From a virus, in IMG/VR virus record IMGVR_UViG_3300037200_000348, positions 1 through 52,150 of that record: a DNA stretch of 52,150 nucleotides; one strand, 5' to 3'. A program made the position numbers and the translations under genes. Positions 2,297 through 43,009 of the stretch are shown piece after piece. Within the stretch, counting starts at the first letter, position 1; each line of letters begins with the position of its first letter. Under the pieces are notes generated by a model, which was given only the letters and a program-made list of their open reading frames with translations, did not search any database and had not been told where the DNA came from.

Positions 2297-2408
2297 GCGT
2301 AGAGGTTGGGAAGTGTAGCGCGGCCGTTTTAACCGGCAACACCGAACGCGCTTTGGCGCTCGCAGCGTAACTGCTGCCAACCGCAAGGGCCGCCGAAAGG
2401 CGGCTCTT
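2297..2408 (+). ncRNA. Candidate structured non-coding RNA
   Basis: About 110 bases downstream of the promoter at 2261 without a sensible reading frame. GGTTGG (2304-2309) can pair with CCAACC (2377-2382) to close a multibranch fold containing three hairpins: GCCG/CGGC around 2323-2337, GCGC/GCGC around 2348-2359, and GCAGC/GCTGC around 2362-2376. A separate 11-pair hairpin with a GAAA tetraloop (about 2384-2409) ends the region but has no U-run. It is not a standard tRNA: there is no T-loop TTCRA and no suitable acceptor or D arm. The function is unknown. It abuts and is antisense to the 3' end of the MazG-like gene. Confidence 0.4.
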
Positions 2409-2409
2409 G

Positions 2410-2717
2410 TCATTCGATGTCGCGGAGCGTGAAGCGCGTCGGCAACTTCTCTGCCGAAAGCGCGTCGAGTTCTTCGAGCGATAGTCCGAGAGGTGAAGTA
2501 CGACCGAGTAGACGTCGCAAAGCTCTTCCCGCGCCCGGGCCAAAGCTACCGGGGCCTTCCCGGTGAGCTTCAAGAGGTCTAGCTCGTCGGCAAGCTCGGC
2601 GACTTCACTGCGGAGATGCGCGATGACGGCGGTGTTCGTCCACGACGATGGCCGCGAGCCCTTGCGATGCATCGCGTCCTCAGCGACGATACGCTTGACG
2701 ACAGACTCGGCCCTCAC
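2410..2717 (-). pseudogene. MazG-like nucleotide pyrophosphohydrolase, frame broken once
   Basis: GTG 2717 overlaps the DUF3307 stop as GTGA. The first 77 codons hold a MazG-type helical core with SEVAELADELD and the metal-binding EExxD motif (REELCDVYSVV), the signature of all-alpha NTP pyrophosphohydrolases that hydrolyse NTPs to NMP and pyrophosphate. At 2487 the frame must step back one base; the continuation GLSLEELDALSAEK is then followed by TGA at 2410, giving about 102 residues. Without the step the frame runs on through Arg/Ser-rich shadow sequence. There is no classic slippery heptamer, so a lost base (mutation or assembly error) is more likely than programmed frameshifting. Confidence 0.6.
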
Positions 2718-3142
2718 TGCTGTTGCGGTCGTCCCGAGAGCGCGGCGTGATTGATGAGAAGATGGAGCGTGTTGTCGGCGATGATGAGGAGCCACACGGC
2801 CATCCATGGTGGCATGTCTTCGCTATAACCTGTATTCGTCGCAAATGGACCGGCAGTGGGATAATACACCGCACATCGTCCGACCTGTTGCCGAATCCAC
2901 GTCCTATGTGTCGTCCAGTTCTTGGCCGCTACGATGAAGCGCGCGAGCCGATAGCGATCGATCGCGGCGTGCGTCGCAAAGATGATGCCGAGGCGCAGTG
3001 GGTTGCGCGTGAGCGCGAGGAAGCTCGCGGTGTATGCGGCGGCGTGGAAGAGCGCCCACCACCACGACTTCGTTTTCTTCGTGGCCATGGCGTCGGTCTG
3101 GAGGATGTAGTCCCCCACAAGGTGAGCGAGAAGCTCGTTCAC
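2714..3142 (-). CDS. DUF3307-type membrane protein
   Basis: A 142-residue protein starting with GTG 3142, chosen because GTGA overlaps the upstream stop and because everything before it in this frame is Arg-rich shadow. The order of features matches DUF3307: LAHLVGDYILQTD near the start, WWWALFHAAAYTASFLAL as the first membrane helix, a THAAIDRYRLARF segment, then WMAVWLLIIADNTLHLLINH as a C-terminal membrane helix. The family is common in phages and bacteria and its function is not established. It is translationally coupled to its neighbours on both sides by GTGA overlaps. Confidence 0.75.
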   Translation of the reverse strand: MNELLAHLVGDYILQTDAMATKKTKSWWWALFHAAAYTASFLALTRNPLRLGIIFATHAAIDRYRLARFIVAAKNWTTHRTWIRQQVGRCAVYYPTAGPFATNTGYSEDMPPWMAVWLLIIADNTLHLLINHAALSGRPQQQ

Positions 3143-36891: not shown

Positions 36892-39696
36892 ATGAGGTAT
36901 CTCTCCGTCTGTTCGGGAATCGAAGCAGCAACTGTTGCATGGGGTTCTCTCGGATGGCAGCCCGTCGCGTTTGCCGAGATCGACCCGTTCGCTTGCGCGG
37001 TCCTCGCGCACCACTATCCCGAGGTCCCGAACCTCGGCGACTTTACAAAGATTGGACCCGAAGACGTTGGAGCAATCGACCTTCTTGTTGGCGGAACACC
37101 GTGCTTTGCGTCCGGAACGCTCGTCACGCTCGATCGCGGGTTGGTGCCCATCGAAGAGGTGCGCGTAGGTGACCGCGCCCTGACGCACGAGGGTACGTTC
37201 GAGCGCGTCTCGGCCGTCGGGAGCAAGTCGGCACCGACCGTGCGCGTGCGCGGGCAATCCGGCGACGTCACGACGACCGCCGACCACCGCTTCTGGTCGT
37301 CCAGCACGATGTCGCGTTCGACGCGGCGCGGCGGCGTGGCCGCGCGCGAGACAACCCGCAGCGAACCTGGTTGGACGGCCGCGAAGGACCTCGTCGGCGC
37401 GCACGTCGCGACCCCAACGGTGGTCCCGATGCTTCCCGTCCCGCCCGTGTCCGCCCTCGGACGCGAACGCGAAGGCCCGGCGATCTCGGAGCAGTTTATG
37501 TGGTGCGCGGGGGCGTGGCTAGGTGACGGATGGACGCGCGTATGGGAGGGTGGCCGCAGAGGCGCCGTCGTCGTGTGCGCCGCGCGCGGACCGCAGGCCC
37601 GGGAACTCGAACGCAACATGCGCGACGTGTTCGGGAGCGTCACCCTGACGCAGGAACGCACGACGGAGCGCCTGGCGGCGTATTCGCTCGCGACGGTGCG
37701 CTGGCTACGGGAGAACTTCGGGAGCGGCGCGGCGGGCAAGACCGTTCCGACGTGGTTGCTTGGAGCGCCCGAGGGATTGCGTCGCGCGTTCCTCGCGGGC
37801 TACCTTTTCGCCGACGGGAGCACCATGCCCAACGGCCGCCGATGCACGACCGTCTCGCCGCGCGTGGCCCTTGGGATCGCGATGCTGGCCCACACCCTGG
37901 GATTTTCTACAAGCCGCTACGAGACGCGCGTCGATCCGACGACCGTCATCGAGGGGCGGACCGTCACACAGCGCCCCTGGTGGCAGGTTTCCATCTACGA
38001 CCGCGCGCGTTCGTCCTGGACGGACGGCCGCCACCGCTTCGGCCTTTGCCGTAGCGTCGAACCCACAGGGAGGACCGAGACCGTCCATGACCTCACCGTC
38101 GAACGATCCAACTCTTATGTTGCTGCCGGGCTTGTCGTCCACAACTGCCAAGACTTCTCCGTTGCCGGACTGCGAGCCGGACTTGCGGGCGATCGAGGAC
38201 AACTCGCCATTGAGTTCGCTCGACTTGCTGCGCGTTTACGTCCCCGCTGGCTTATCTGGGAAAATGTCCCCGGTGTTTTGTCCGCAGACAAAGGAGGGGC
38301 CTTTGGAATCTTCCTCGGGGCGCTGGCAGAATGCGGGTATGGGTTCGCCTACAGAGTTTTGGACGCTCAAAACTTCGGAGTCCCACAGCGCCGCCGTCGC
38401 GTGTTCGTTGTCGGACATCTTGGAGAATGGCGACGTGCCGCAGCGGTACTTTTTGAGCGCGAAAGCCTGTCGTGGAATACTCCGCCGCGCAAAAAAGCGC
38501 GGAAAGACATTGCCGGAACTCTTGGAGCGCGCACTTCGGCAGGTGGCGGATTCGGAACCGACTTTGACTTAGACGGCGTCCTCGTCGAGTCGTACAGCCC
38601 TGGCTCGTTCGGCACGTACAGCGAGGGCATAAAAGCCCTGCGGGCGGGAAGCACGGGTGCGGGCAAAGATGCCTTGCTCGTCGCGCATACGTTGCGCGGC
38701 GAGGGTCATGACGCAAGCGAAGACGGCACGGGGCGCGGCGTTCCGCTAACGATCTCATTTGGCGCACAAGCCGACTTGTCGCCTACTCTGCGCGCAATGT
38801 CTCACCGAGACTCGCACCAGAACGCAGGCGGGCAAATTACGGTTCCGTTCTCACAGAACTCGCGCGACGAGATTCGCATGGTGGGCGGAGACGGCGGTGT
38901 CGTCGGAGCGTTGTCGGCCGAAACCGGCATGGTGGCCTTTACGTGTAAGCAAGATGGCACCGACGCAGGCGCAGTATCGCCAACGTTGCGTTCGATGAAT
39001 CACGCGGACAGTCATGCAAATGGCGGGGGGCAAGTCGCCATTACCGTTCCGCTTTCTGGAGTGCGGCGATTGACGCCGCGCGAATGTACTAGGTTGCAGG
39101 GATTCCCGGACGATTACCTTACGATGCGGTATGCCGATGCCGAGGAAGCCCACACCGCTCAAATATTGCACGAATTGTGGAACGCGGCTGGAGCGATCGC
39201 GCGAGAAGGATGGCGACCTGGAGTCGTTGCAGCACTTCTCACGCCGGAAATATTGCTCGCGGGCGTGTATGGCGGATGGGTTTCGTGGAAGCTGGCGAGA
39301 CGATGTGCTGCCGCACGAAGGACGTTACAGGGCGCGGAGCCTTGGCCCGAAGGGTTCGTGTTCGCGTTGCGGGACGGAGAAGAACGTCGATCGTCACCAT
39401 ACCGACGAGAATCCTTTGAACAATGCGCCCGAGAACTTGGTCGACCTCTGTCGTCGGTGCCACCTGGCCGAGCATCGTGTTCCGAGATTCTGCGAAGAAG
39501 CGGGTTGTGGGCGGAAGCACAGGCGCTATGGCCTCTGCGATATGCACTCGCAACGCCTTCGCAGATCGAAAAAGGACGTATCGACGTAGCCGACGGACTG
39601 AAGTACCGCGCGCTCGGCAACAGCATGGCGGTCCCCGTCATGCGCTGGATTGGCGAGCGAATCGCAATGGTTGATGCGATATTTAGTCGCAACTAA
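36892..39696 (+). CDS. DNA cytosine-C5 methyltransferase with an intein and a nested HNH gene
   Basis: A 934-residue open frame. Motif I is SVCSGIEAATVAW at the start; motif IV GGTP|CQDFSVAG is split by an intein (residues 71-418), so the catalytic Cys is residue 419. Motif VI is ENVPG (457-461), motif VIII QRRRRVFVVG (499-508), a target-recognition region follows (about 510-710, with the pair SPTLRAMSHRDSH / SPTLRSMNHADSH), then RECTRLQGFPDDY, and motif X RALGNSMAVPVMRW near 905-920. Between the last two, about 140 residues correspond to a complete HNH gene read in the +1 frame. No restriction partner is near. The ATG has only a weak AAGG. Activity needs intein splicing and tolerance of the loop. 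Confidence 0.9.
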   Translation: MRYLSVCSGIEAATVAWGSLGWQPVAFAEIDPFACAVLAHHYPEVPNLGDFTKIGPEDVGAIDLLVGGTPCFASGTLVTLDRGLVPIEEVRVGDRALTHEGTFERVSAVGSKSAPTVRVRGQSGDVTTTADHRFWSSSTMSRSTRRGGVAARETTRSEPGWTAAKDLVGAHVATPTVVPMLPVPPVSALGREREGPAISEQFMWCAGAWLGDGWTRVWEGGRRGAVVVCAARGPQARELERNMRDVFGSVTLTQERTTERLAAYSLATVRWLRENFGSGAAGKTVPTWLLGAPEGLRRAFLAGYLFADGSTMPNGRRCTTVSPRVALGIAMLAHTLGFSTSRYETRVDPTTVIEGRTVTQRPWWQVSIYDRARSSWTDGRHRFGLCRSVEPTGRTETVHDLTVERSNSYVAAGLVVHNCQDFSVAGLRAGLAGDRGQLAIEFARLAARLRPRWLIWENVPGVLSADKGGAFGIFLGALAECGYGFAYRVLDAQNFGVPQRRRRVFVVGHLGEWRRAAAVLFERESLSWNTPPRKKARKDIAGTLGARTSAGGGFGTDFDLDGVLVESYSPGSFGTYSEGIKALRAGSTGAGKDALLVAHTLRGEGHDASEDGTGRGVPLTISFGAQADLSPTLRAMSHRDSHQNAGGQITVPFSQNSRDEIRMVGGDGGVVGALSAETGMVAFTCKQDGTDAGAVSPTLRSMNHADSHANGGGQVAITVPLSGVRRLTPRECTRLQGFPDDYLTMRYADAEEAHTAQILHELWNAAGAIAREGWRPGVVAALLTPEILLAGVYGGWVSWKLARRCAAARRTLQGAEPWPEGFVFALRDGEERRSSPYRRESFEQCARELGRPLSSVPPGRASCSEILRRSGLWAEAQALWPLRYALATPSQIEKGRIDVADGLKYRALGNSMAVPVMRWIGERIAMVDAIFSRN
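37102..38145 (+). mobile_element. Methyltransferase intein with LAGLIDADG endonuclease
   Basis: A 348-residue intein. Block A starts CFASGTLVTLDRGLVPIEEV; block B includes VTTTADHRFWS; the endonuclease motifs are CAGAWLGDG and FLAGYLFADGS; the C-terminal blocks are TVHDLTV and GLVVHN. Extein +1 is the catalytic Cys of the host enzyme. Cys1, the penultimate His and terminal Asn are intact, so splicing should work. Unlike the DnaB intein its DNA is as GC-rich as the flanks, which suggests longer residence or a GC-rich donor. Confidence 0.95.
39131..39589 (+). CDS. HNH endonuclease nested in the methyltransferase gene
   Basis: A complete 152-residue protein in the +1 frame relative to the methyltransferase, from ATG 39131 (or ATG 39137). 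The N-terminus KPTPLKYCTNCGTRLER, with HFSRRKYCSRACMADGF, is the zinc element common in free-standing phage HNH proteins, followed by CSRCGTEKNVDRHHTDENPL, NAPENLVDLCRRCHLAEH (the HNH nuclease with two zinc pairs), then CEEAGCGRKHRRYGLCDMHS. It fills the gap between the GFPDDY and ALGNSM blocks of the host gene. No ribosome binding site is obvious, so expression may depend on host-gene translation. Confidence 0.85.
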   Translation: MPMPRKPTPLKYCTNCGTRLERSREKDGDLESLQHFSRRKYCSRACMADGFRGSWRDDVLPHEGRYRARSLGPKGSCSRCGTEKNVDRHHTDENPLNNAPENLVDLCRRCHLAEHRVPRFCEEAGCGRKHRRYGLCDMHSQRLRRSKKDVST

Positions 39697-40712
39697 ATCA
39701 CCATCACGCGCTGATATTTTTCAAGGCCTTTCATTGTGGCCTCATCCTCTTTGTCGAGTGACCCACCGTACGGCTCGCCGCCGTACGATTCCGAGGCGCC
39801 ATCGACCGAAAGCGATGACAGGCCGTTCGTGAGATTATACCATCCCTGGCGCCGCACGCGATTCGCTACGAGGCGCGCTACGCTCGTCGTGATGCCGGTC
39901 GGCATGCCGGATGACCAGTCGATCGGCGACGCACCCGTACCGTCACCCTTGGGCCCGGCAGAGGGATTGATGACCATGCCGGTGTCGGCGTCGAAGACGA
40001 GCGCGGTGCCGTCCTGGTATTTCGTTGGGGGGAAGCCGAACGTGTAATGGACCTCGACGTTGACCTGGCCCGGAATGAAGCTGTAATTCCACATGGGGAG
40101 CGAGAGCCCGGCGTAGAGCACGCGCGGCGGTATCGTAAGAATCCCGCGGCGCGTGTCGACGTACATATCGGCGTCCTCGATGCCGGTTGCATATATCGCG
40201 CCACCCGAAGATTCCGTTGCAGCTACGACGTCGACCGGGAACGTCTCCGGTGGCGTCGGGAGCGGCTCTTGGCCGCCGATGCGCCAATTCTCCGTGCCGT
40301 CGAGGCGACGAATCTTCCCGAAGTGATACCACACCTGCGAGGGAAGAATACGAAGATAGACCGTCGTGACGTCACGGATGTTCTTGTACGGCAACGTGAG
40401 TTGCGGGCCGCCTGGGCCGTCGAAGAACTGCTGGATGAAGCACCAGTCGTACGGCGAGCCCAGAAACTTGACAACGAGGTCGGTCGCCTCTTGGATGTAT
40501 ATATTGACGAGCGACTCGAACGTGTCGAGCGTGCCGTTGCAATCCTTGAAGTTGCCGAGATTCGTGCCGAGTAATAGCGCCTGCACCTGACGCAAGCTGC
40601 AGTGCGGTTGCGCGTCGTCCTCCGCGCGCACGAGCACCCTCGCCGGAATCGTTTGCGGGTACTTCGGCAACGGGAGTGCAGGACGGATGTATGGGCCCGG
40701 AAAGAAGCTCAT
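39693..40712 (-). CDS. Head-tail adaptor candidate
   Basis: A 339-residue protein, convergent with the methyltransferase (four-base overlap of stops). N-terminal helices (SLRQVQALLLGTNLGNFKDC, TFESLVNIYIQEATDLVVKF), a beta-rich middle (GGPQLTLPYKNIRDVTTVYL, then RRGILTIPPRVLYAGLSLP), and a C-terminal RLVANRVRRQGWYNLTNGLS helix. Position after the major capsid gene (with the GIY-YIG gene between) is that of head completion or adaptor proteins. Not assigned to a family. Confidence 0.55.
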   Translation of the reverse strand: MSFFPGPYIRPALPLPKYPQTIPARVLVRAEDDAQPHCSLRQVQALLLGTNLGNFKDCNGTLDTFESLVNIYIQEATDLVVKFLGSPYDWCFIQQFFDGPGGPQLTLPYKNIRDVTTVYLRILPSQVWYHFGKIRRLDGTENWRIGGQEPLPTPPETFPVDVVAATESSGGAIYATGIEDADMYVDTRRGILTIPPRVLYAGLSLPMWNYSFIPGQVNVEVHYTFGFPPTKYQDGTALVFDADTGMVINPSAGPKGDGTGASPIDWSSGMPTGITTSVARLVANRVRRQGWYNLTNGLSSLSVDGASESYGGEPYGGSLDKEDEATMKGLEKYQRVMVI

Positions 40713-40726
40713 GCGCGGGACGTTCG

Positions 40727-41803
40727 CTACGCGGCGGTGGAGTCTTTGGCCGCCTTGCGCTCGCGATACCGGGCAGCCCTGGCGTTGGCCGCAAGACGCT
40801 TCTCTTCGGCGAAGTTCGGCGAGCGCTTTGCCGCCCAGTGAGCGGCGTTCTTCTCGCCGATTTTTCGGCGATGCTCCTTCGATGGCGGCCCGATGATGCG
40901 GCCGGTGAGCGACGCGGAGATTTTCGCCTTCGTCTCATCGGAGTGCGGCTTCTTTTTCATCCCGGTGATCGTTGCCACGCGCTTCGCGATGTGCTCCGGC
41001 GACTGCTTGCGCCCTGTGTTCGCGGCGATCGTGGCCGCACGGCATTCGGGCGAGATGCGCGCCCATGGCTGCCCGCGATTCGCGTCGCCTATCTTGCGCC
41101 GATGCTCTTCCGTTAAGGGTTTCCCGAGCTTCGCTTGGCGCATAAGCTCGCGCGTCTCGGCGCTTGGACTCTGGCCACGCGCCCACTCAGCGAAGGCCAC
41201 GGTGACCTCGGGGTGCTCTTCGCGATAGCGGCGCAACGAGACGCTGATTTTCGCGCGCACCTCGGGTGTATGAAGATGCGCCGGAGCGCGGCCCTGCATC
41301 GCCGCCGTCGCCTTGGCGCGGGCCTCTGGGGTATTCAGGCGCTCGTGGGAGGCGGTTTCGATCGAGTGACGGCGATGAGCTTCGCGGCCCTCTTCGGTGT
41401 AGCCAGCCTTAATTGCGGCGGCGCGGCGAGCGATGTTCTCGGCAACCTTCCAGTACACGCTATGGAAAGCGCTACCCTTGGCCTTACATTCGTCGGATTG
41501 GGGAACGCCGAAACGCGAGCCAGCGACCTGCGCGACATTGTAGACCGGCTTCCAAAGGTCGATGTATGCCTGCTCGCGCTCGATGAGCCTGGACTGCCCA
41601 GCAACCTCTTCGAGAACGCTAAACTCGAAGGCGTCTGGACCGTACTTGTTCCAAGAATTTTGGAGGTACTTCGCCGGGTGATTGCCGCGCCTGAGAACGT
41701 ACCGATGCTGCTTCCATCTGGTCGGTATATTCACAGAACTTCCGACGTATGAATTGCCGCTCTCGCGATGCCGGATAAGATAAATGCCGCTCGCAACTTT
41801 CAT
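40727..41803 (-). CDS. GIY-YIG homing endonuclease with NUMOD3-type repeats
   Basis: A 358-residue protein from ATG 41803; an earlier ATG at 41815 overlaps the -10 box and is unlikely. N-terminal nuclease: GIYLIRHRESGNSYVGS, catalytic Arg in PTRWKQHRYVL, and Glu in FEFSVLEEVAGQ. The rest has several NUMOD3-like DNA-binding units, such as TEEHRRKIGDANRGQPW, SDETKAKISASLTGR and SKEHRRKIGEKNAAHWA. It lies between capsid and adaptor genes and carries its own promoter. The C-terminus is basic and Ala-rich. Confidence 0.9.
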   Translation of the reverse strand: MKVASGIYLIRHRESGNSYVGSSVNIPTRWKQHRYVLRRGNHPAKYLQNSWNKYGPDAFEFSVLEEVAGQSRLIEREQAYIDLWKPVYNVAQVAGSRFGVPQSDECKAKGSAFHSVYWKVAENIARRAAAIKAGYTEEGREAHRRHSIETASHERLNTPEARAKATAAMQGRAPAHLHTPEVRAKISVSLRRYREEHPEVTVAFAEWARGQSPSAETRELMRQAKLGKPLTEEHRRKIGDANRGQPWARISPECRAATIAANTGRKQSPEHIAKRVATITGMKKKPHSDETKAKISASLTGRIIGPPSKEHRRKIGEKNAAHWAAKRSPNFAEEKRLAANARAARYRERKAAKDSTAA

Positions 41804-41813
41804 TGTGAACGGC

Positions 41814-41842
41814 ATTGTACCACTCTTTGACTTTCTTTACAA
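41814..41842 (-). promoter_or_regulatory. Promoter of the GIY-YIG gene at 41803
   Basis: Minus-strand TTGTAA (41842-41837), 17 bases, TACAAT (41819-41814) with an extended TGG before it. The -10 ends ten bases before ATG 41803, leaving a 5' leader of only about four bases. A 6-bp inverted repeat CTCGTA-AAA-TACGAG spans the end of the capsid gene at 41874-41888. Confidence 0.65.
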
Positions 41843-41878: not shown

Positions 41879-43009
41879 TTACGAGATTCCCAACGCACCA
41901 ATCAGGCTCAAAAGCCCGTGGAATATGAATGCGAGGGCAAAGACTCCGTAAATTGGGGGAAGCGTTGCGTTCAGCCCTTGAAGGAGCCCCTGGTACTGCG
42001 TGATGCCGATTTGCAGCATGCTCGTCTCGTAGACGATGCCGCGGTCGGCCGTCGTGATCGCCTGGAGGTCGACGTAGTGGAGCTTGTCGACGTCGACCAT
42101 CTGCACGGCGTTGCCGGAGTTCTTGTCGTCGGAGGTCGAGTCGTCCAGGAAGATGATGCGTTCGAGCCCGGTGTTCGGGTCCGGAATCATGTACTGGTCC
42201 ATGATGAGGTCGACGGCCCCGGTACCGAAGTTCCAGGTGTCGATTTCAAAACCGCCGTTGACCGGCCCCATAGCCGCCGACCCACCCTGGCGGATGGCAT
42301 AGAGCGGCTGCAGCATCTGCGTGAGCAACGCCATGATCGTGTAGCTCATGACGAGCGCGCGTGTGCGTCCACCGGCCTTCTTGATGGCGTAGCACTGCTG
42401 GCGGATTTGCGCGTAGTTGAGCGCCGCGCCGCCTCCGGCCGAGACGTCGAGGATGTTGAATCCGTCGGCCTGGATTTGGGTGATAAGGCCGTCGAAGGCC
42501 AGGCCGTTCGTCAGCGACGAACTACCGTTGAGGATGAAGTATTCCTCGGCGAGCCCAACATTTATCATTTTGACGCGCTTCTGCTGCGCCAGAATGTCGA
42601 TGAACGAGGCGTCTTGCGCCTTGTCCTGCCACGCGACGATGACCATGTCGCCGATGTTGCTGTACGGACGCGACACGTACTCGTACTGTGGGTCGAGAGC
42701 GGCCGGGAGGCCACCCTTTGCGAACGCGGCGCCCGAGGGGTCGGTGCCGAGATACTTGGTCGTCGTCTGATTGATGCCCGCATTCGAGACGAGCTTGTAG
42801 AAGGCGTGCGCCTTGCCCTCGCCCTTGATGCGGGTAAGCCGGTTGCGCACGGGCGTGTCGAGGTTCGCCGCCAGCTTCAGGTCGTCTTCGAGGTCCTGTC
42901 GGACGACTTCGAGGCCCGGTACAGCCGTCGTGGACTTACGAATTTGGTCGAACTTCCGAAGGTCCGCGACGATTTGGTCCGGGCTCCGAAACTCTGCTAA
43001 CTTGGCCAC
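41879..43009 (-). CDS. Major capsid protein
   Basis: A 376-residue protein from GTG 43009 with GAGGGGAG about ten bases upstream. The order protease, scaffold, then this gene, and the pattern of an N-terminal helical region followed by a mixed core (RPYSNIGDMVIVAWQDKAQD, EEYFILNGSSSLTNGLAFDG, DTWNFGTGAVDLIMDQYMIP, RIIFLDD), fit an HK97-fold major capsid protein. Typical P-domain-like sequence ends with MLQIGITQYQGLLQGLNATL. The final 20 residues (FALAFIFHGLLSLIGALG) are strongly hydrophobic, which is unusual. The DNA just upstream (43010-43111) holds no gene. Confidence 0.75.
   Translation of the reverse strand: MAKLAEFRSPDQIVADLRKFDQIRKSTTAVPGLEVVRQDLEDDLKLAANLDTPVRNRLTRIKGEGKAHAFYKLVSNAGINQTTTKYLGTDPSGAAFAKGGLPAALDPQYEYVSRPYSNIGDMVIVAWQDKAQDASFIDILAQQKRVKMINVGLAEEYFILNGSSSLTNGLAFDGLITQIQADGFNILDVSAGGGAALNYAQIRQQCYAIKKAGGRTRALVMSYTIMALLTQMLQPLYAIRQGGSAAMGPVNGGFEIDTWNFGTGAVDLIMDQYMIPDPNTGLERIIFLDDSTSDDKNSGNAVQMVDVDKLHYVDLQAITTADRGIVYETSMLQIGITQYQGLLQGLNATLPPIYGVFALAFIFHGLLSLIGALGIS

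Follow-up and report, generated by a model that had tools for sequence, protein, structure and literature searches.

A family of HNH endonuclease genes nested out of frame within C5 cytosine methyltransferase genes

Known out-of-frame insertions and the window locus

The principle that an HNH endonuclease gene can lie out of frame inside a phage DNA methyltransferase (MTase) gene has been in print since 2025, in an account of the ShiLan domain and the Pacc40 insertion (PMC11855218). In the ShiLan domain (Mycobacterium phage ShiLan gp65) the HNH open reading frame (ORF) lies out of frame while the MTase frame stays open, no splicing element was found, the distribution is patchy and the host MTase also has an intein (PMC11855218, PMC9957025); in Pacc40 gp60, too, a nuclease ORF is described as lying out of frame within the MTase gene of a phage (PMC11855218). 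Here we describe such an arrangement in a C5 cytosine DNA MTase gene of IMG/VR virus record IMGVR_UViG_3300037200_000348 (positions 1 to 52,150; this whole stretch of 52,150 nucleotides is called the window), together with a family of relatives that is a variant of the published principle, distinct in its HNH, host class and frame, and much larger.

The window MTase ORF (934 residues, 36892-39696, + strand; PF00145, E 9e-49) reads through two inserts, one of which holds a complete HNH ORF of 152 residues (39131-39589) on the same strand in a second frame, offset by one base, with both frames open, as an earlier reading of the letters alone (the sequence-only reading) had claimed. On its 5' side the insert directly adjoins a stretch that we take to be MTase motif IX (RRLTPRECTRLQGFPDDY, 39064-39117, + strand; placed by sequence, translation and the motif spacing in relatives), and on its 3' side the MTase resumes in frame with what we take to be motif X (ALGNSMAVP) in its C-terminal part (39592-39696, + strand), again as claimed. 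Read in the MTase frame, the insert forms a loop of ~158 codons (~39118-39591, + strand, by comparison with insert-free MTases), ~145 codons longer than in insert-free relatives, with edges that are approximate. Because motifs IX and X lie ~168 codons apart here and only 21-28 residues apart in the nearest MTases in which both were recognised (except L223 and a spurious motif match in L167), the stretch between them is read as an insert, in the place where C5 MTases have a short link. The MTase-frame reading of this insert matched no family in Pfam or PHROG.

The protein encoded by the nested ORF has a zinc ribbon at its N-terminus, then an HNH core and, at its C-terminus, a Cys/His finger, and matches the HNH endonucleases of PHROG 1271 (E 3.5e-10) as well as Pfam HNH (E 0.004, under that family's curated cut-off). 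Its residues C13, C16, R22, C42, C46, C77, C80, H89, H90, N98, N102, C107, C110, H111 and H115 are invariant in 49/49 aligned relatives; the full set of zinc and HNH motifs claimed in the sequence-only reading is present, including the zinc ligands and HH...N...H core that define an HNH endonuclease. An AlphaFold2 model of the protein has a mean predicted local distance difference test (pLDDT) score of 92.4; a Foldseek search with it against the PDB gave no match at E < 0.001, and the weak matches include I-HmuI (E 0.49) and a Geobacter nicking HNH (E 0.64).

Compared with the published elements, the window system differs in several respects. The ShiLan host is assigned to the amino-MTases from its DPPY motif, whereas the window host is a C5 MTase; the ShiLan HNH is not recognisably related (best match to the family E 0.001, to the window E 0.093), and its host reads the other alternative frame, which is open in 4% of synonymous shuffles compared with 0/500 for the window's frame. 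The record note for Pacc40 gp60 is 'DNA methylase N-4', its HNH ORF has no match to the window's family, and its host also uses the other frame, open there in all 500 shuffles. Freestanding zinc-ribbon HNH endonucleases (PHROG 1271 and locus L058) share the zinc ribbon and HNH core with the window protein: L058:3980-4315 is a family member that is not nested and is 53% identical to the nested L052 over 111 columns. Inteins with homing endonucleases likewise place a homing-type gene inside a conserved coding sequence, on the same transcript; unlike in inteins, the window endonuclease is in another frame and has no splicing domain around it. A literature search returned no report of a C5-MTase-nested HNH family, within a coverage that excluded bioRxiv and most subscription papers.

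Distribution, insertion sites and insert-free relatives

Relatives were sought in IMG/VR and in species genomes with HNH-frame queries, so that loci were not chosen for having an open MTase frame. Among the best 80 of 84 relatives from IMG/VR, 53 (L004, L005, L007-L057) and L062 are nested within C5 MTase ORFs with the same frame offset, the remaining 26 being weaker matches; among the best 80 of 121 loci from a second IMG/VR search, 49 were checked and 49/49 were open in the same frame with an MTase match, most of the unchecked rows being contigs already in the set. A first scan of species genomes found no HNH relative, and a broader profile found eight loci there; in six, from records of Dokdonella, Peptococcaceae, Virgibacillus proomii, Actinomycetales, Lentisphaerae and Eubacterium, the HNH is nested in an MTase frame. 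Two named phages carry the nested HNH, Staphylococcus phage CUB-EPI_14 and Komagataeibacter phage phiKX1, and phiKX2 also matches. Annotation hides the nuclease in both: the Staphylococcus phage record says 'DNA-cytosine methyltransferase', and that of phiKX1 has no nuclease annotation.

The counted set comprises 106 loci including the window (90 non-redundant), one of which (L098) entered through an MTase-side search, and in all 106 the HNH is nested in C5 MTase frames. Outside it stand L055 (a contig-end fragment) and L062, both open with an MTase match; L059 and L060, open with no MTase match; L074 and L077, in inteins; L058, L061, L063-L073, L075, L076 and L078-L084, with stops in that frame; and, from species genomes, L245 (open over a 42-codon match, no MTase) and L246 (a stop). 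Nested loci L255, L256, L264, L267 and L290 were removed from the count as copies, and L097, L247-L249 (100% identical to L098) and L257 were not among the checked loci. In L007, L008, L031, L262, L264 and L296 the tblastn match passes an HNH-frame stop, and the HNH ORFs are shortened.

Some loci have unusual layouts. In L300, L302, L303 and L305 the MTase frame stops shortly after the HNH; in L300, L302 and L305 a stop or a change of frame breaks motif IX in two (LTPL* then LECERLQG), and L302 has a second HNH-like ORF upstream. L002 (phiKX1) may have a second dual-coding region, upstream of its nested HNH (locus 2300-3000), where the HNH frame presumably holds a conserved MTase-type stretch (GWPTP...LNPSHSRWLMGFP). 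More distant zinc/HNH genes are likewise nested within terminase inteins, at L074:3434-4153, L077:1561-2307 (on the contig of L486), L487:3001-3747 and L488:3001-3711. The host ORFs of L074 and L077 have Pfam terminase and intein domains, L487 and L488 have an intein HN|C end, and the intein frame has 0 stops in each, where 8.1, 9.6, 3.7 and 9.6 are expected, respectively; L489, a weaker match, is not nested.

A motif search across the 106 loci placed 12 insertions between motifs IX and X (the window's class) and 42 just before motif IX, leaving 52 unassigned; manual inspection placed 27/52 of these in an MTase type whose HNH immediately precedes motif X, and added L009 and L012 to the IX-X class. 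The HNH clades go with insertion sites. On an HNH tree of 91 rows including the freestanding L058, built by a quick search without bootstraps and with 36 open forks, the IX-X class makes up a single group of 12 rows (support 98), and a second group (support 98) unites L058 with 15 pre-X rows, six pre-X rows falling outside it. The site label changes 22 times on this tree, compared with 47.9 in shuffles, and 0/200 shuffles were as low. Flanking duplication as a general rule was rejected, a flank repeat being found in only 11/106 loci. A different HNH is nested in a C5 MTase within motif IX at L223:4119-4736, with its host in the other alternative frame (0 stops, 1.1 expected).

Insert-free relatives bear on whether the extra loop is simply normal in such MTases, a possibility raised with the sequence-only reading and contradicted here: 79/80 of the MTases nearest to the window's lack this HNH (tblastn, 1e-6), L223 with its different HNH being one of the 79, and empty sites exist at ~91-92% identity. 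L042 (503 residues, with the HNH) is 91-92% identical to the HNH-free L328, L329, L332 and L335 (343-346 residues) over ~500 nucleotides of the N-terminal MTase part, and downstream of the insert L328 and L329 are 92% and 91% identical to it over 602 nucleotides. Insert-free relatives, a search for which had been proposed with the sequence-only reading, are thus present; the variable region between the two aligned flanks cannot be aligned. At the L042 site the left edge of the insert resembles the displaced target and recalls an 11-residue similarity reported for ShiLan; this is not general. An apparent HNH in 69/80 MTases near L042 was an artefact of short matches of the HNH-frame tail over motif X; among those 80, an HNH match of at least 80 residues occurs only in L326 (the contig of L042, 160 residues) and L330 (85 residues, 47%), the MTase ORF of L330 has no long insert, and in L327 (the contig of L043) the HNH falls outside the stretch compared. 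For some pairs, identity is higher in the HNH block than in the N-terminal MTase, as in L032/L033 (95% vs 79%) and L056/L057 (88% vs 75%).

Constraint on the two frames and translation of the HNH

The MTase frame is stop-free across the insert in 106/106 loci. None of 500 synonymous-codon shuffles of the window HNH leaves it open (6.7 stops expected, 0 seen), and in the 90 non-redundant genes 0 stops were seen compared with 611.6 expected from synonymous shuffles within each HNH gene over the first 165 codons, an earlier run of 45 genes having given 0 compared with 299.4. The third frame, taken as a control, had 522 stops compared with 477.7 expected and was open in 0/90 genes, and the freestanding L058 has 8 stops in the frame corresponding to the MTase frame. 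A spliced or dead host gene is disfavoured by these counts, because neither would need a stop-free frame in 106/106 loci.

Substitutions were counted within the insert only, in 26 disjoint close pairs from four groups, with two nonsynonymous/synonymous ratios per frame. For the HNH frame the ratios were 0.52 and 0.20 in the window clade (6 pairs), 0.30 and 0.33 (3 pairs), 0.22 and 0.05 (1 pair) and 0.39 and 0.31 (16 pairs). For the host frame they were, in the same order, 1.32 and 0.51, 0.96 and 1.06, 1.38 and 0.30, and 1.12 and 0.88, and so within 0.88-1.38 in 6/8 comparisons; some differences were scored as a 'stop' class, each judged on the background of one sequence, the real sequences having no stops. 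From these ratios, the HNH frame is under purifying selection, which answers the doubt, also raised with the sequence-only reading, that it might not be conserved, and the host frame is nearly neutral save for the avoidance of stops, with room for weak constraint in the window clade. Among 636 deep pairs (25-45% HNH identity) the host-frame score lies 0.4-0.6 standard deviations above a stop-free-shuffle null, compared with 0.1 for the control frame; an unconditioned conservation test overstated host-frame conservation, because its shuffled copies carry stops. MTase-frame helices as a conserved domain were dropped after the stop-conditioned shuffles and substitution counts. The MTase-frame segment of the window gave two matches against phage records, both by chance, and that of the Staphylococcus phage matched only itself among those records.

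In most loci the HNH starts ~12 codons before the first CxxC. A Shine-Dalgarno-like match of at least 4 nucleotides precedes 90/106 HNH starts compared with 39% of control starts, and one of at least 5 nucleotides precedes 51/106 compared with 13%, the best of the candidate starts being used under the same rule for HNH genes and controls. The nearest relatives of the window have GGAG seven bases before the HNH ATG, and most of 57 loci checked have a stop in the HNH frame no more than ~12 codons 5' of the start.

The second insert of the window MTase is an intein (~37102-38145, + strand; Pfam Hint_2, LAGLIDADG_3 and Intein_splicing), with boundaries inferred from the translation, which ends in HN and is followed by the catalytic cysteine of PCQ; PF00145 and motifs IX and X are present in the MTase, and its PCQ is complete only once the intein is taken out. 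This intein, which the sequence-only reading does not mention, has a LAGLIDADG domain and sits directly before the catalytic cysteine, so that one gene hosts two parasites. Elsewhere in the window, a GIY-YIG homing-type endonuclease with a NUMOD3 motif (40727-41815, - strand) adjoins a weak match to an SU10-type major capsid protein (41879-43009).

Competing explanations and significance

The nested HNH looks like a selfish gene living inside coding DNA without splicing, and we consider it probable that it is a homing-type HNH gene that is not spliced out but carried within the C5 MTase as a loop that is translated and nearly neutral. A homing-type HNH endonuclease gene would have inserted into a C5 MTase gene between motifs IX and X, and neither RNA splicing nor protein splicing would remove it. 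Ribosomes translating the MTase would read through it and yield an MTase with an extra loop, while internal initiation on the same mRNA, in the frame offset by one base, would give the HNH. The HNH may then cut the uninterrupted MTase gene and spread by repair copying, the looped MTase is presumably active, and both proteins are presumably made. With slightly more confidence than doubt, we further propose a frame-locked mobile gene, in which the HNH lineage keeps a second frame permanently stop-free and fits several sites and MTase subfamilies without an intron or intein.

Several observations weigh against this explanation. The window HNH start has no Shine-Dalgarno-like site, and the HNH frame is open for 19 codons 5' of its ATG. 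Two host-frame ratios among HNH-silent changes, 0.51 in the window clade and 0.30 in a single pair, leave room for some constraint on that frame. In several pairs, the window's included, the HNH and MTase have diverged alike, which lends no support to frequent homing. Finally, homing by itself does not account for the presence of nearly every nested copy in a DNA MTase.

One alternative is that the HNH serves the MTase as a partner nuclease, cutting the unmethylated DNA of rivals, with the shared DNA keeping the pair linked as in restriction-modification or competition. Every one of the 106 counted loci is in a C5 MTase frame, the freestanding L058 begins where an apparent Dam-type MTase ORF ends and the published cases sit in amino-MTases (PMC11855218), but the absence of the HNH from 79/80 near MTases, the existence of close insert-free relatives and the similar out-of-frame HNHs in terminase inteins, where no MTase is involved, make such a partnership unlikely. 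The host-frame reading of the insert could instead be a working MTase domain, for example in target recognition, overprinted by the HNH. The 0.51 ratio in the window clade would fit this, as would the 57-59% host-frame identity in the window's near relatives and the helices at residues ~400-480 of an L004 MTase model (pLDDT ~75-83), although that model (mean 55.8) is too poor for a structural claim. Host-frame ratios are near 1 in the larger sets, deep conservation does not go beyond stop-free shuffles, and it is the HNH that has freestanding and wider HNH relatives while the host-frame segment matched no family; we regard a working domain as very unlikely.

Removal of the insert from RNA or protein, as a mobile intron or unusual intein, is suggested by its position in conserved MTase motifs, its patchy occurrence and the true intein in the same gene. 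RNA splicing would end the need to avoid stops, yet none was seen where 611.6 were expected; the Pfam intein families in the window MTase are confined to residues 70-418, no Pfam intein motif lies within the insert, an Rfam 15 scan of 38000-40000 gave only one irrelevant sub-threshold match and no intron, and the HNH fills nearly the whole insert. The sequence-only reading, which had excluded an intein and an intron on such grounds, is supported in both respects, and we find either exceedingly improbable. Hardly credible, finally, is a programmed frameshift, by which ribosomes on the MTase would shift to the HNH frame and produce a fusion of MTase and HNH: overlapping frames on the same strand and the 19 open codons before the window ATG speak for it, but an upstream HNH-frame stop in most of the 57 loci speaks against it, and start codons and Shine-Dalgarno-like sites recur (no search for a slippery site was made). 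The reading of an unspliced gene within DNA coding in two frames is supported.

With this family, an oddity of two mycobacteriophage elements becomes a broad family across phages and bacterial genomes, in which selection can be measured per frame, the parasite's frame being constrained and the host's mainly kept open, and in which comparison provides evidence that translation of a host protein runs through an unspliced parasite. For annotators it is a warning that a nuclease can be hidden beneath an MTase annotation. If the frame-locked mobile gene is real, homing genes would have a third way of residing in a conserved gene, in addition to splicing at the RNA and protein levels.

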